A DNA stretch of 57,478 nucleotides from Chloroflexota bacterium (GTDB lineage Bacteria > Chloroflexota > Dehalococcoidia > Lucifugimonadales > UBA3495). The DNA lies in the NCBI GenBank assembly GCA_027624135.1, contig JAQBXL010000006.1, positions 1 through 57,478 on the forward strand, given 5' to 3'. Every line of letters begins with the position of its first letter. Within the stretch, counting starts at the first letter, position 1. The position numbers were made by a program, and so were the translations under genes. Of the stretch, positions 16,627 to 57,478 are shown piece after piece. The notes below the pieces were generated by a model. That model searched no databases. It saw nothing but the letters and a program-made list of their open reading frames with translations, and was not told the origin of the DNA.

Positions 16627-18411
16627 CTATTTCTTGACCGCGCCGCCTCTGGTGGAGACGCTCACCGTTTCATCGATCAAGCCGGTGAGCTCGGTGATAC
16701 GTCCTGAAATGCTCATCGCCAATTCCTGGTTGCCGGCCGGCCCAGCTAGTTGCTTCAGAGAATCGGACAATTCGGCGATTCGGCTGCCAATCGCTTCCGT
16801 CGCATCTTTCCTAGCGTTGGCCAAAGGCTGGGACACTGCCCGGACCTGGTCAACTAGTTCATTCACTTTCTGGGAGATGTTTTCTCCGAACTCATTCCCG
16901 GCCAGATTGGCGGTGTCCGACCAGTTGTGTAGCGCCTCGGTGGCTTCACCGAGCCGAGAGGCCAACGTATCGCTAAAGTCCTTGCTGTGGGCGGCCAACC
17001 GCAGTTTGTAGTTCCGGAGTATCCGGAAGACCCGCCGGTAAACATCGTCAACCGGATTCAACTTAGCAGAATATTGATCAAACAGATCCCTGCTCTCCTG
17101 CATCGTCCAGCGGGAGTCCTGATGGACAAACTGGCGTCCGGTGTATAGATGATAAGGACGCATCTTCCCCTCGGCCAAGATATCGCCATTCTCGTCCAGC
17201 GGCACCAACGAGTCCCAGTTGGAGGTGGCCGGCAGCGGAGTCAAGAAATTGACGGTCTGGTATTTGCTAACGGTTGTTACCCAATCCGCCAGGTCCATGA
17301 TGCTTTTTCCGGTATCGTACGGAAGCCCAATGATGGTCATTGCGACCACCGTGAACCCTTCGCGGTTGAGATACCCCAGATCTGTATGCATCTGACCCGG
17401 CTCCTGCCGTTTGTTCACGGCCAGAAGGTTTTCGGCGTTGTCCGACTCGACACCCACGTAAAGCATGTTGATGTTGGCGTCTTGCATGGCCGCGGCCAAT
17501 ACCGGGTCCTGGCCGACCTCGGCCCTGACCTGGCAGATCATGTTCATCTTATCGGTGTGGCCTTTCCAGCTTTGCAGCCGGGCTAATCGCTCATCACGGA
17601 ACTTAACCGCTCGCATGGGCGGTGCGTGAAGGTCATCAGATATAAAGACCTGGAACGATCCACTTCTGGATGAGTGGATCAAGCCATCACTGGCCAGGTC
17701 TGTGAGTTGTGTCAATCGCTTTATCTCGGTTTCCCGGGAAATCATCCGGTAGCCGAGGAACTGCTGAATAACCTGGCAGTAGGTGCAGCTTTCGGTGCAA
17801 CCTCGAATGGTCTCCAGCACCCCACCAGCCATTGGGTTATCGGAAGAGAGGTCTTTGATCGACCGGAAATCGGGCAGTTCCACGAAATCCGGGTTGACCA
17901 GGCCTTGGCGTTTGGTCTGGACGATGCCCCCGTTCTTCCGGTAGCTGATTCCGGGAATCTTATTCAGGTATTGTTCCCGGTCGGCGCCTGTGTGCTCCAA
18001 CAAAACGTCGGACAATTGTCCGATGATGTCTTCGCCCTCGCGTTGGACAATCACATCGAAATCGCCGTAGTTGAAGGCCTCTTCGGCGAGAGGGCTCATC
18101 TGGGGGCCGCCACCGATGGTGACTAAATCTGGGTGGAATTGCTTGGCTAACCGGGCGATCTGATACCCACGGGGCGCTTCATTGATCAGGGCTGTGACCA
18201 TGAAGATATCGACACCTTCCAGGTCCTTGTCTGGATCCATCAACCCTGAGCGGTCCTCGAACCAGATCTCACGCTCATAGATATTTGGACCTTCCCACTG
18301 GGCGAGAGCGCCCGAAAGGAAGAGCAACCCTTGCCTGGGTATGGCTACATATTCAAAATTTCCGCCGGCGGACGCTGGTTGAAACAGCATCACCCGCTTT
18401 ATTCGCGACAT
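16627..18411 (-). CDS. B12-binding-type radical SAM protein with long C-terminal helical extension
   Basis: A 594-residue protein. Residues about 1-140 resemble the Rossmann-like cobalamin-binding domain (TIGGGPQMSP at about 98-107; no DxHxxG ligand motif). A radical SAM core follows, with CTESCTYC (Cys205, Cys209, Cys212) to hold the 4Fe-4S cluster, plus VGVESDN and TIIGLP downstream. From about residue 460 to the end lies a polar, heptad-like helical tail rich in Ala, Glu and Asn, which is not part of the usual core. The family includes methyltransferases and cyclases (BchE, HpnP and relatives), but the substrate is not readable. The ATG at 18411 follows AGGAG. Confidence 0.8.
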   Translation of the reverse strand: MSRIKRVMLFQPASAGGNFEYVAIPRQGLLFLSGALAQWEGPNIYEREIWFEDRSGLMDPDKDLEGVDIFMVTALINEAPRGYQIARLAKQFHPDLVTIGGGPQMSPLAEEAFNYGDFDVIVQREGEDIIGQLSDVLLEHTGADREQYLNKIPGISYRKNGGIVQTKRQGLVNPDFVELPDFRSIKDLSSDNPMAGGVLETIRGCTESCTYCQVIQQFLGYRMISRETEIKRLTQLTDLASDGLIHSSRSGSFQVFISDDLHAPPMRAVKFRDERLARLQSWKGHTDKMNMICQVRAEVGQDPVLAAAMQDANINMLYVGVESDNAENLLAVNKRQEPGQMHTDLGYLNREGFTVVAMTIIGLPYDTGKSIMDLADWVTTVSKYQTVNFLTPLPATSNWDSLVPLDENGDILAEGKMRPYHLYTGRQFVHQDSRWTMQESRDLFDQYSAKLNPVDDVYRRVFRILRNYKLRLAAHSKDFSDTLASRLGEATEALHNWSDTANLAGNEFGENISQKVNELVDQVRAVSQPLANARKDATEAIGSRIAELSDSLKQLAGPAGNQELAMSISGRITELTGLIDETVSVSTRGGAVKK

Positions 18412-18767: not shown

Positions 18768-18907
18768 GGTGAAAACGGGAGACGACGAAGCTACTTGCCC
18801 TCGAAATGGGGAATGATCTCCTTTGTAAACGGGTGAAAACGGGTGAAAACGGGTGAAAACGGGAGACCATGAATCTACTTGCGCTTGAAGTGAGGAATGA
18901 TCTCCTG
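18768..18907. repeat. Direct duplication of an LLM-gene 3' end flanking decamer repeats
   Basis: A segment of about 56 bases occurs twice (about 18768-18823 and 18852-18907). Both copies run from GGTGAAAACGGGAGAC to GGAATGATCTCC. The right copy contains the true 3' end of the LLM gene at 18875. The left copy still reads on the minus strand as a diverged gene end (EIIPHFEGK then stop, against EIIPHFKRK then stop). Between them GGGTGAAAAC is repeated three times (18831-18860). Confidence 0.75.
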
Positions 18908-19819
18908 GGCGATCGCCTCAAGGTGGCGCTCCCGGTCTTCCCTGGGGCAGCTGATACTAAAGACGATATGCCGCGCTCCGGCGTCGATGTACTCCTGCAG
19001 TTGTTTGATGCAGCTCTCCACCGTGCCGAGCAGGCAATACTTTCTGACGATGTCCAGGAACTCACCACCATATAGGTAGCGGCCGCCAAGCTGTTCAGCG
19101 GCTACTTCGGCTGCCTGTTGCTCGGTAGGATAGATGGCGATATATGGGAAGTGAGCCCACTGGAAACCGGACATGTCCCTCCCGGCCTCGGCGGCAAACT
19201 TGCTGATCTTCTCCACGCTGTCACGGTATCTGGGCGCATCGTAGAAATAGGGCATCCATCCGTCTCCGAACTTAGCAGCCCGAGCCATTGCTGCATCTCG
19301 TCTGCCAGACACCCACACCGGCGGGTTGGGCTGCTGTACTGGAACTGGGTTGATCATCGCATCTTTAAGCTGGAAATGACGCCCCGAAAACGTCACGCGC
19401 TCGCCGGTCCATAGCTTGCGCAGCACTTCCAGGCACTCATCGGTTCTCCGTCCACGCTGGTTCACCTTAAGTCCGGCGGCTTCAAACTCCACGGGAAACT
19501 CACCGCCAATGCCCACGCCCAGGGTCAATCGTCCGTTCGTTGCCAGGTCCAAAGAGGCAGTCATCCGGGCCAGAACCAGAGGGTGATAGAAAGGGGTCAA
19601 TATGATGGAGGACAATATGCGAAGATTGTCGGTCGCCCCGGCAGCCACCGCCAACACGGGCAAAGCCGCATGGGTTGGGCCTGGTGGGTCGCCACGCATA
19701 AAGTGTTCCCCTTCGGAGATGTACTCGTAGCCTAGTTCTTCCATCCAGCGGGCCTGGCGGGCAGTCTCGCCGACCCCCAAAGCCAATCCCGCGCCGAAAT
19801 GCAGGTCCAAGTCTGTCAT
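18875..19819 (-). CDS. LLM class (luciferase-like) F420-dependent oxidoreductase, copy 1
   Basis: A 314-residue TIM-barrel flavin/F420 oxidoreductase. Family features are the N-terminal GAGLALGVGETARQARWMEE, the LTLGVGIGGEFPVEFEAAG stretch and RGRRTDECLEVLRKLW, then PPVWVSGRR in the second half. Such enzymes oxidise alcohols or reduce activated double bonds using F420, or sometimes FMN. The cofactor is inferred from the F420 genes at 25-29 kb. The ATG at 19819 has a strong AAGGGGGG site. Its 3' end is duplicated next to it. It is divergent from the NDUFA9-like gene. Confidence 0.88.
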   Translation of the reverse strand: MTDLDLHFGAGLALGVGETARQARWMEELGYEYISEGEHFMRGDPPGPTHAALPVLAVAAGATDNLRILSSIILTPFYHPLVLARMTASLDLATNGRLTLGVGIGGEFPVEFEAAGLKVNQRGRRTDECLEVLRKLWTGERVTFSGRHFQLKDAMINPVPVQQPNPPVWVSGRRDAAMARAAKFGDGWMPYFYDAPRYRDSVEKISKFAAEAGRDMSGFQWAHFPYIAIYPTEQQAAEVAAEQLGGRYLYGGEFLDIVRKYCLLGTVESCIKQLQEYIDAGARHIVFSISCPREDRERHLEAIAQEIIPHFKRK

Positions 19820-55931: not shown

Positions 55932-55973
55932 CCCGTAGTTTTAAGGGTTTCACCCGTAGTTTTAAGGGTTTCA
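55932..55973. repeat. Perfect 21-base tandem duplication upstream of panE
   Basis: CCCGTAGTTTTAAGGGTTTCA occurs as two identical head-to-tail copies (55932-55952 and 55953-55973), ending just before the panE ribosome-binding site. Because 21 is a multiple of three, the open frame upstream of panE persists across both units. Confidence 0.85.
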
Positions 55974-55988
55974 AAGGAGATTCTCGGC

Positions 55989-56906
55989 ATGCGAATCGCG
56001 GTCATGGGGGCCGGGAGCACCGGCGGTTACTTCGGAGGCATGCTGGCCCGCGGCGGGAACGACGTGGCGCTGATCGCCCGGGGAGAACACCTCAAAACCA
56101 TACGGTCCAATGGCCTGAGAGTGGTCCGGGACGATGAAGAGTTCACTGTCCAGTGTCTGGCCACGGACGAACCGTCAGAGGTTGCCCCCGTCGATCTGGC
56201 GTTATTGTGTGTCAAAACCTACCAGAGCGCGGTCGCCGTCCCAATGATGAAGCCGTTGGTGGGGCCTGACACCACGGTGCTCTGCCTTCAGAACGGGGTG
56301 GATAGCTACGAGACGGCTGCCGCGATATTGGGCGATACTGCTGTGCTTCCGGGTGCCGCTTTCATCGAAGCTGGCATGCCGGGACCGGGAGTGATCCGCC
56401 AAACCGGCAGCCTGGTGCGGATAATTCTAGGCGAGACGAACGGATCAGAGACCGACCGGTGCCGTATCATCCGCGACGTCTTTGCCGAGGCGGGCGTACC
56501 TGCCGAAGTAGTGCCTGATATCAGGGCCGGACTATGGGGGAAGTTTTTGTTCATCTCCACCATGGCCGGTGTCACGTCGATGGCCCGGGCGACTTTGGCG
56601 GAACTTATGCCCCAGCCCCATTGGCGTAGGGTGGTTCTGAGTTGCCTGGCCGAGATCGACGCTGTCGGCAGGGCCAACGGGGTTAACCTTACCAAAGACA
56701 TCGTTGGCGATACGGTGAGTTACATCGAAGACCATCTCGCCGATCTTCAAGCATCGATGCACACCGACCTTTTAGCTGGGCGTCCTTTGGAGCTTGAGGC
56801 CCTGAACGGATCGGTTGTGCGGGCCGGAGATACTGCAGGAGTGCCGACGCCGATAAACGACGTGATCTACGCCATGTTGAAGGCTCTTGAGAACGGAGCG
56901 AAGTAG
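55989..56906 (+). CDS. panE: Ketopantoate reductase (PanE/ApbA family)
   Basis: NADPH-dependent enzyme that reduces 2-dehydropantoate for pantothenate and CoA synthesis. The 305-residue protein opens with the Rossmann loop GAGSTGGYFGG; LCVKTYQ follows. GLWGKFLFIS carries the catalytic-type Lys, and ELDALN-like residues (LELEALNGSVVRAG) close the active site. The open frame extends to 55929, but ATG 55989 lies ten bases after AAAGGAG and starts directly with MRIAVMGAG, so it is chosen. Some relatives act on other 2-oxo acids, so the symbol is provisional. Confidence 0.85.
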   Translation: MRIAVMGAGSTGGYFGGMLARGGNDVALIARGEHLKTIRSNGLRVVRDDEEFTVQCLATDEPSEVAPVDLALLCVKTYQSAVAVPMMKPLVGPDTTVLCLQNGVDSYETAAAILGDTAVLPGAAFIEAGMPGPGVIRQTGSLVRIILGETNGSETDRCRIIRDVFAEAGVPAEVVPDIRAGLWGKFLFISTMAGVTSMARATLAELMPQPHWRRVVLSCLAEIDAVGRANGVNLTKDIVGDTVSYIEDHLADLQASMHTDLLAGRPLELEALNGSVVRAGDTAGVPTPINDVIYAMLKALENGAK

Positions 56907-56914
56907 CCAAGTAG

Positions 56915-57478
56915 ATGGATGAAACTCCCGACAGCCACGATCTGGACAAACTGACAAACTGACAAACTGACAAAATGGCATGACGGACTGATCTCCCAGA
57001 CCCATGAAGGCTTTCCGGTTTGCGCCCTGTTTTTGGCTTCCGGAGAGGATACACGGGCTCACGACATCTTCCGCATCTACCGGACGGCGTTTGCAGAGAT
57101 GGGAGCCGGGTTTCACGACTTGGTGATCTTCGGTCAACACGGCGGATCCAGCACGTCGGCCGCTCTGATTCCCGGCCTGAGACTTTCAGATCTTCAGATA
57201 CCGTCCCTGGTTCTGATAACTGGTGGGGCTCTGCCCGTCTGCCACACCACTGCCCTTCCAGTGGGGGAAGCATTTGAGGAAGAAGATGCTCCTTGGAGTA
57301 GTGCGCTAGACTGCATCAAGAAAGCTATTAACCGGGATTCCCCAGATCAAACCGACTTTCCTAGATATAGCCCCCTCTGGGATGGCGCCAACTATATTCA
57401 CGCATTCCAAGGATGTCAAATGCGGCCTGGATCACTCAAATTCCCCGCTTTCATAGGGCAACCACCGTCCTGCCAAGC
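56915..57478 (+). pseudogene. Frame-broken, 3'-incomplete gene of unknown function
   Basis: A clear coding stretch runs in one frame from about 56955 to the window end (start about GLISQTHEGFPVCALFLASG, then FRIYRTAF and VIFGQHGGSSTSAAL). It has no good start codon at its front. An ATG at 56915 opens a frame (MDETPDSHDLDKLT) that stops at 56960-56962 inside the 8-base repeat. With one repeat unit instead of three the two frames would join without a stop. So the gene appears interrupted by repeat expansion; alternatively a rare start (CTG 56988) or the ATG near 57099 is used. I recognise no family. Confidence 0.5.
56943..56974. repeat. 8-base tandem repeat CTGACAAA, three perfect copies
   Basis: Units at 56951-56958, 56959-56966 and 56967-56974, preceded by a degenerate unit (TGGACAAA, 56943-56950). 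The array lies at the front of the next reading frame. Because eight is not a multiple of three, changes in copy number shift the frame. Confidence 0.9.

Follow-up and report, generated by a model that had tools for sequence, protein, structure and literature searches.

Near the end of the window, by which we mean the whole analysed stretch of 57,478 nucleotides, an open reading frame stops inside a short tandem repeat, and a second frame continues beyond it. This raises the question whether the repeat switches a living gene on and off or marks a gene that has been lost. Our analysis indicated that the locus is probably a recently inactivated protein-coding gene (pseudogene) of a SAR202-type Dehalococcoidia genome, with lesions in both its 5' and its 3' part (Table 1).

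Table 1. Features of the broken gene and its surroundings in the window.
Feature	Position	Strand	Basis
Upstream neighbour, ketopantoate-reductase-like ORF, 305 aa from ATG 55989, intact	55989..56906	+	ORF list; same order in congeners
Start of broken gene: ATG 56915, MDETPDSHDLDKLTN, premature TGA 56960-56962	56915..56962	+	N-terminus common to homologues
Perfect 8-bp tandem array, GACAAACT x3.75	56945..56974	+	TRF: x3.8, 100% matches
Remaining surviving coding part; out of frame with the ATG, without stops, family homology	56967..57331	+	
TTAA adjoining the IS end, presumed target site, fits T-N-A-N preference	57328..57331	+	
IS1380-family insertion sequence, transposase-3'-side end, runs off contig	57332..57478	-	
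Promoter-like site TTGACA-17-TATAGT in the IS end, outward-pointing, antisense to the broken gene	57391..57419	-	11/12 consensus matches

A reading frame interrupted by an 8-bp array

The broken gene begins 8 bp past the stop of the ketopantoate-reductase-like ORF and encodes 15 residues (MDETPDSHDLDKLTN) before its frame meets a TGA within the perfect array of GACAAACT. This agrees with the first-pass annotation, which had placed the stop in the same repeat, read there in another phase as three copies of CTGACAAA (56951-56974). The downstream frame, of 174 codons, begins at 56955, runs as far as the window end and overlaps the first frame at 56955-56962. It contains no ATG or GTG start, and its first TTG is found at 57033. 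The 357 bp after the array were open in the right frame, while shuffled versions were open in 27 of 2000 trials. Just 5' of the ketopantoate-reductase-like ORF, a 21-bp sequence (CCCGTAGTTTTAAGGGTTTCA) forms a perfect tandem duplication (55932-55973).

The array lies within the 5' end of the gene, and its unit length of 8 bp is not divisible by three. Among nine array lengths tested (0 to 8 full units), the frame was open into the downstream frame with one full unit only, as had been claimed from the initial finding that removal of two units (16 bp) joins the two frames. In longer arrays a TGA is always met, since each unit carries one and a run of 24 bp takes it through all three frames. The frame is restored only by the loss of two units, and single-unit slippage does not restore it.

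Arrays with at least 3.5 copies of a 7-12 bp unit occurred twice in the window versus 0 in 100 dinucleotide shuffles, and CTGACAAACTGACAAA, which occurs twice, was found in 0 of 100 shuffles. Such arrays are rare in real DNA too. In a 394-kb sample of this genome we found two perfect arrays with at least 3 copies of a unit of at least 7 bp, both of them in the window, versus two in 336 kb of congener DNA. There was thus no genome-wide excess of these arrays in the DNA compared; the array is unusual and the genome is not rich in them. A modest excess was seen for two-copy perfect repeats with units of 8-40 bp (9.4 per 100 kb in this genome versus 6.0 in congeners). Only one comparable array (AAACGGGTGA x3.7, 18827-18863) occurred in the 394-kb sample; it sits between the minus-strand ORFs 18875-19819 and 16627-18411.

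Homologues and predicted fold of the protein family

The gene was found in open frames in nine of the eleven congeners and in many genomes of the same taxonomic family, the named relatives being MAGs of the SAR202 cluster and of other Dehalococcoidia/Chloroflexota. No copy was seen in the remaining two congeners (G005 and G007), where the gene may either be dispensable or have been missed in the drafts. In all 23 intact homologues, which come from SAR202-type and other Dehalococcoidia/Chloroflexota, the start precedes the array site and the frame reads across it with an N-terminus resembling M..TPDSHDLDKLTRW and of the form M..(D/A)SHDLDKLxRW. The MDETPDSHD-like N-terminus expected by the first-pass annotation is therefore common to the homologues, and the downstream start it had considered (near 57030-57099) is ruled out. 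At the DNA level the site was single copy in each of the 23 homologues, all from relatives outside the species (for example GATCTGGACAAACTGAATAGATGG in L063), and a second unit was present in none, so that the unit count proposed for related genomes returned the one-unit state throughout. Neither an array nor a frame transition was found at this site in any of them (0/23). At the DKLT site of the family the window gene carries three full 8-bp units versus one in the homologues, which ends translation after 15 residues and places its array two full units (+16 bp) above their single-copy site.

In the surviving part of the broken gene all 21 residues that are invariant among the 23 intact homologues were present, as were 34 of the 35 residues invariant among the nine congeners. 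With these residues kept and the frame after the array still open, the inactivation must be recent and the gene was functional until shortly before. We found no second copy of it in this genome (assembly 87% complete).

The gene order also recurs in congeners, with a DUF35-type gene, the ketopantoate-reductase-like gene, the gene described here and a convergent DUF2182-type membrane protein gene. These three neighbours are what we take them to be from recognition of their sequences rather than from a family search. A DUF1326-type neighbour was considered as a further syntenic gene and is probably not one, as its matches reached only 27-32%.

The analysis revealed an uncharacterised family (L061-L085) of proteins of about 160-205 residues with the conserved motifs HDxDKLxRW and LVIFGQHG, found here only in genomes of SAR202-type and other Dehalococcoidia/Chloroflexota. 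Searches with the protein gave no credible match in Pfam and NCBIfam and no sequence relative of solved structure in the PDB. No match was found in a plasmid collection. An AlphaFold2 model of an intact homologue (L061) reached a pLDDT of 91.5 and a pTM of 0.88. The nearest solved folds were thioredoxin-like and included the PDI b and b' domains (Foldseek best E 0.02). VIA-align gave Z values up to 7.0 with an rmsd of 3.1-3.6 over 101-122 residues, and no solved relative stood out clearly from the general run of thioredoxin folds; a conserved CxxC pair was absent from the homologue alignment. The structural match would at most reflect a common arrangement, and the fold is described here as predicted thioredoxin-like.

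An IS1380-family end in the 3' part of the gene

Homology of the downstream frame to the family ends at about 57331, and a dispersed repeat (CCGGGATTCCCCAGATC...) occupies the DNA from 57332 up to the window end. The 170-codon frame that had been described as running off the window thus belongs only in part to the gene: its last 49 codons are IS sequence, and this second lesion had been overlooked. The IS end replaces the last ~40 residues (the last quarter) of the gene and cuts it in the part that corresponds to helix 128-142 in the AlphaFold2 model.

Matches to the IS end were found at 38 places in the genome, window included. The 17-bp end pattern gave 39 matches at ≤2 mismatches, a few of which are probably due to chance. 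About 35 IS copies are present, most of which run off their contig within ~300 bp. Two copies reach as far as an IS1380-type transposase, entering it at the C-terminus, and one of them (L052) was matched to transposase family PF13701 (E 2e-15). In this genome and in congener G007, transposase N-termini are preceded by the opposite repeat, an imperfect one, the terminal inverted repeats CCGGGATTYCCCARATC / CCCGCATTTCCCATAT matching imperfectly between the two ends. The outer boundary falls at the same base in the window and in ~35 other copies. Among 35 distinct insertion flanks, T at -4 and A at -2 were each found in 34. The element resembles the IS1380 family (PF13701) in its transposase C-terminus ~200 bp inside the end, its imperfect inverted repeats, its many copies and its fixed boundary; it differs in that a complete copy was not assembled in this genome and the other end of the window copy is missing.

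PF13701 matches numbered six here, all partial, versus none or one in each of the eleven congeners, and the IS burst is therefore peculiar to this lineage, being confined to this genome among those compared. SAR202-2 MAGs have been described as low in transposases (PMC10949469), which points to an atypical transposase content in the present genome. At two loci, L006 (C78) and L058 (C39), this ~190-bp IS end adjoins another interior, with a KOW-like coding stretch, and the L058 interior also encodes a tyrosine recombinase (PF00589). These may be a second element, one that has the IS end in common with the first or has captured it. The IS end in the window further contains a near-consensus sigma-70 promoter, predicted from its consensus match, which faces the flanking DNA.

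A search of the rest of the assembly for the 3' part of the gene gave nothing (best E 0.17), whereas the same query gave E values of 3e-11 to 3e-19 in four congeners. The DUF2182-type gene is absent from this assembly as well and was found with 79-82% identity in the four congeners tested. On the far side of the IS there may have been either an IS-linked deletion or sequence that stayed unassembled in this metagenome-like draft (213 contigs, 87% complete, 4.1% contamination, contig ends in repeats).

Weighing the explanations

A phase-variable gene would be switched by slipped-strand mispairing at the array, on with one full unit and off with two or more. The array is perfect, its unit is not a multiple of three, it lies at the 5' end of a real gene, one allele is exactly in frame, and the remaining surviving frame is well conserved, all of which this explanation would account for. 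Nevertheless we consider it unlikely. An array was seen in none of the 23 homologues; a single allele is open, so that longer arrays never restore the frame, and two units would have to be lost; the 3' quarter of the gene has gone to the IS; the predicted thioredoxin-like fold is not that of an obvious surface protein; and the genome is without an excess of such arrays. In a survey of H. influenzae, three units were the cut-off for octanucleotides (PMC2651432), so the minimal number of units here, only 3.75, also speaks against phase variation. The phase-variation class of the GeneTack survey comprises clusters of at least five frameshifted genes together with a function already linked to phase variation (PMC3711429), and none of the 23 homologues here was frameshifted. 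Of the two possibilities named by the first-pass annotation, phase variability or recent inactivation, the latter is thus upheld, as the expansion breaks a real gene, whereas the former finds little in its favour among the relatives, the unit number, the two-unit loss and the missing 3' quarter. Still less do we believe in a contingency locus with live unit-number variation and the IS in only some cells of a SAR202-type bacterium. If true, it would bring phase variation to a lineage from which we found no report of it; our literature search on this subject and on IS bursts in SAR202 returned nothing directly relevant.

An assembly or binning artefact, in which the extra units or the IS junction would be missing from the cells themselves or would be minority states of a mixed population, is suggested by the draft quality described above, with its many contigs, its contamination and its contig ends in repeats. 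Such an artefact is improbable, given that ~35 other copies share the IS boundary to the base and that the DNA flanking it conforms to the target preference. Furthermore, an array of 30 bp is short enough to be spanned by ordinary short reads, and an assembly error within it is unlikely. As a further alternative, ribosomes might shift frame within the array so that the protein is still made. The stop codon is followed by C, and UGAC is a weak termination context that is also used in the RF2 frameshift; the two frames moreover overlap at this point. Recoding nonetheless seems scarcely credible, as none of the homologues has a frame transition, no slip codon or site could be recognised, the downstream frame lacks ATG and GTG while a start at TTG 57033 would leave the protein without helix 1 and strand 1 of the model, and the C-terminus is missing anyway.

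We therefore return to a pseudogene as the best explanation: the frame is broken relative to intact homologues, no intact copy was found elsewhere, and a further lesion lies in the same gene. Without its extra units, the window coding sequence holds the word GACAAA twice, 8 bp apart. Since such a pair is a natural seed for slippage, replication slippage between these two words, already present in the coding sequence, is the simplest explanation of the +16-bp expansion. The gene may have been dispensable in this lineage, and IS activity might have taken its 3' end and perhaps also the neighbouring DUF2182-type gene. Slippage in the 5' part and IS insertion in the 3' part may have come in either order. 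Against a pseudogene it has to be said that the 5' lesion is a clean change in repeat number, of the kind used by phase-variable genes, that a subpopulation with one unit may exist, and that the gene shows no decay apart from its two lesions. The truncation lies at a draft contig end, where assembly of a mixed population could have merged states with and without the IS.

Taken alone, the finding is ordinary and represents routine gene death. It does provide a clean example of one gene hit both by a repeat expansion that shifts the frame and by an IS, amid an IS burst not seen in congeners, and it illustrates that frames running off a draft contig end can be chimeras with the ends of mobile elements.

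Among known systems, the octanucleotide phase-variable candidates of Haemophilus influenzae (PMC2651432) are similar in having 8-bp units in the 5' coding part and on/off states set by frame. In contrast, the gene described here has no array in its relatives, minimal units, one open allele and a truncated 3' end, and no allelic series is evident. A closer likeness is found in the singleton frameshifted genes of the GeneTack survey, in which lone cases were treated as likely indels or sequencing errors (PMC3711429). As in these indel pseudogenes, one genome is broken, its relatives are intact and there is no conserved frameshift site; the difference is that the indel here is a whole-unit tandem expansion, accompanied by a second lesion, the IS end, in the same gene.
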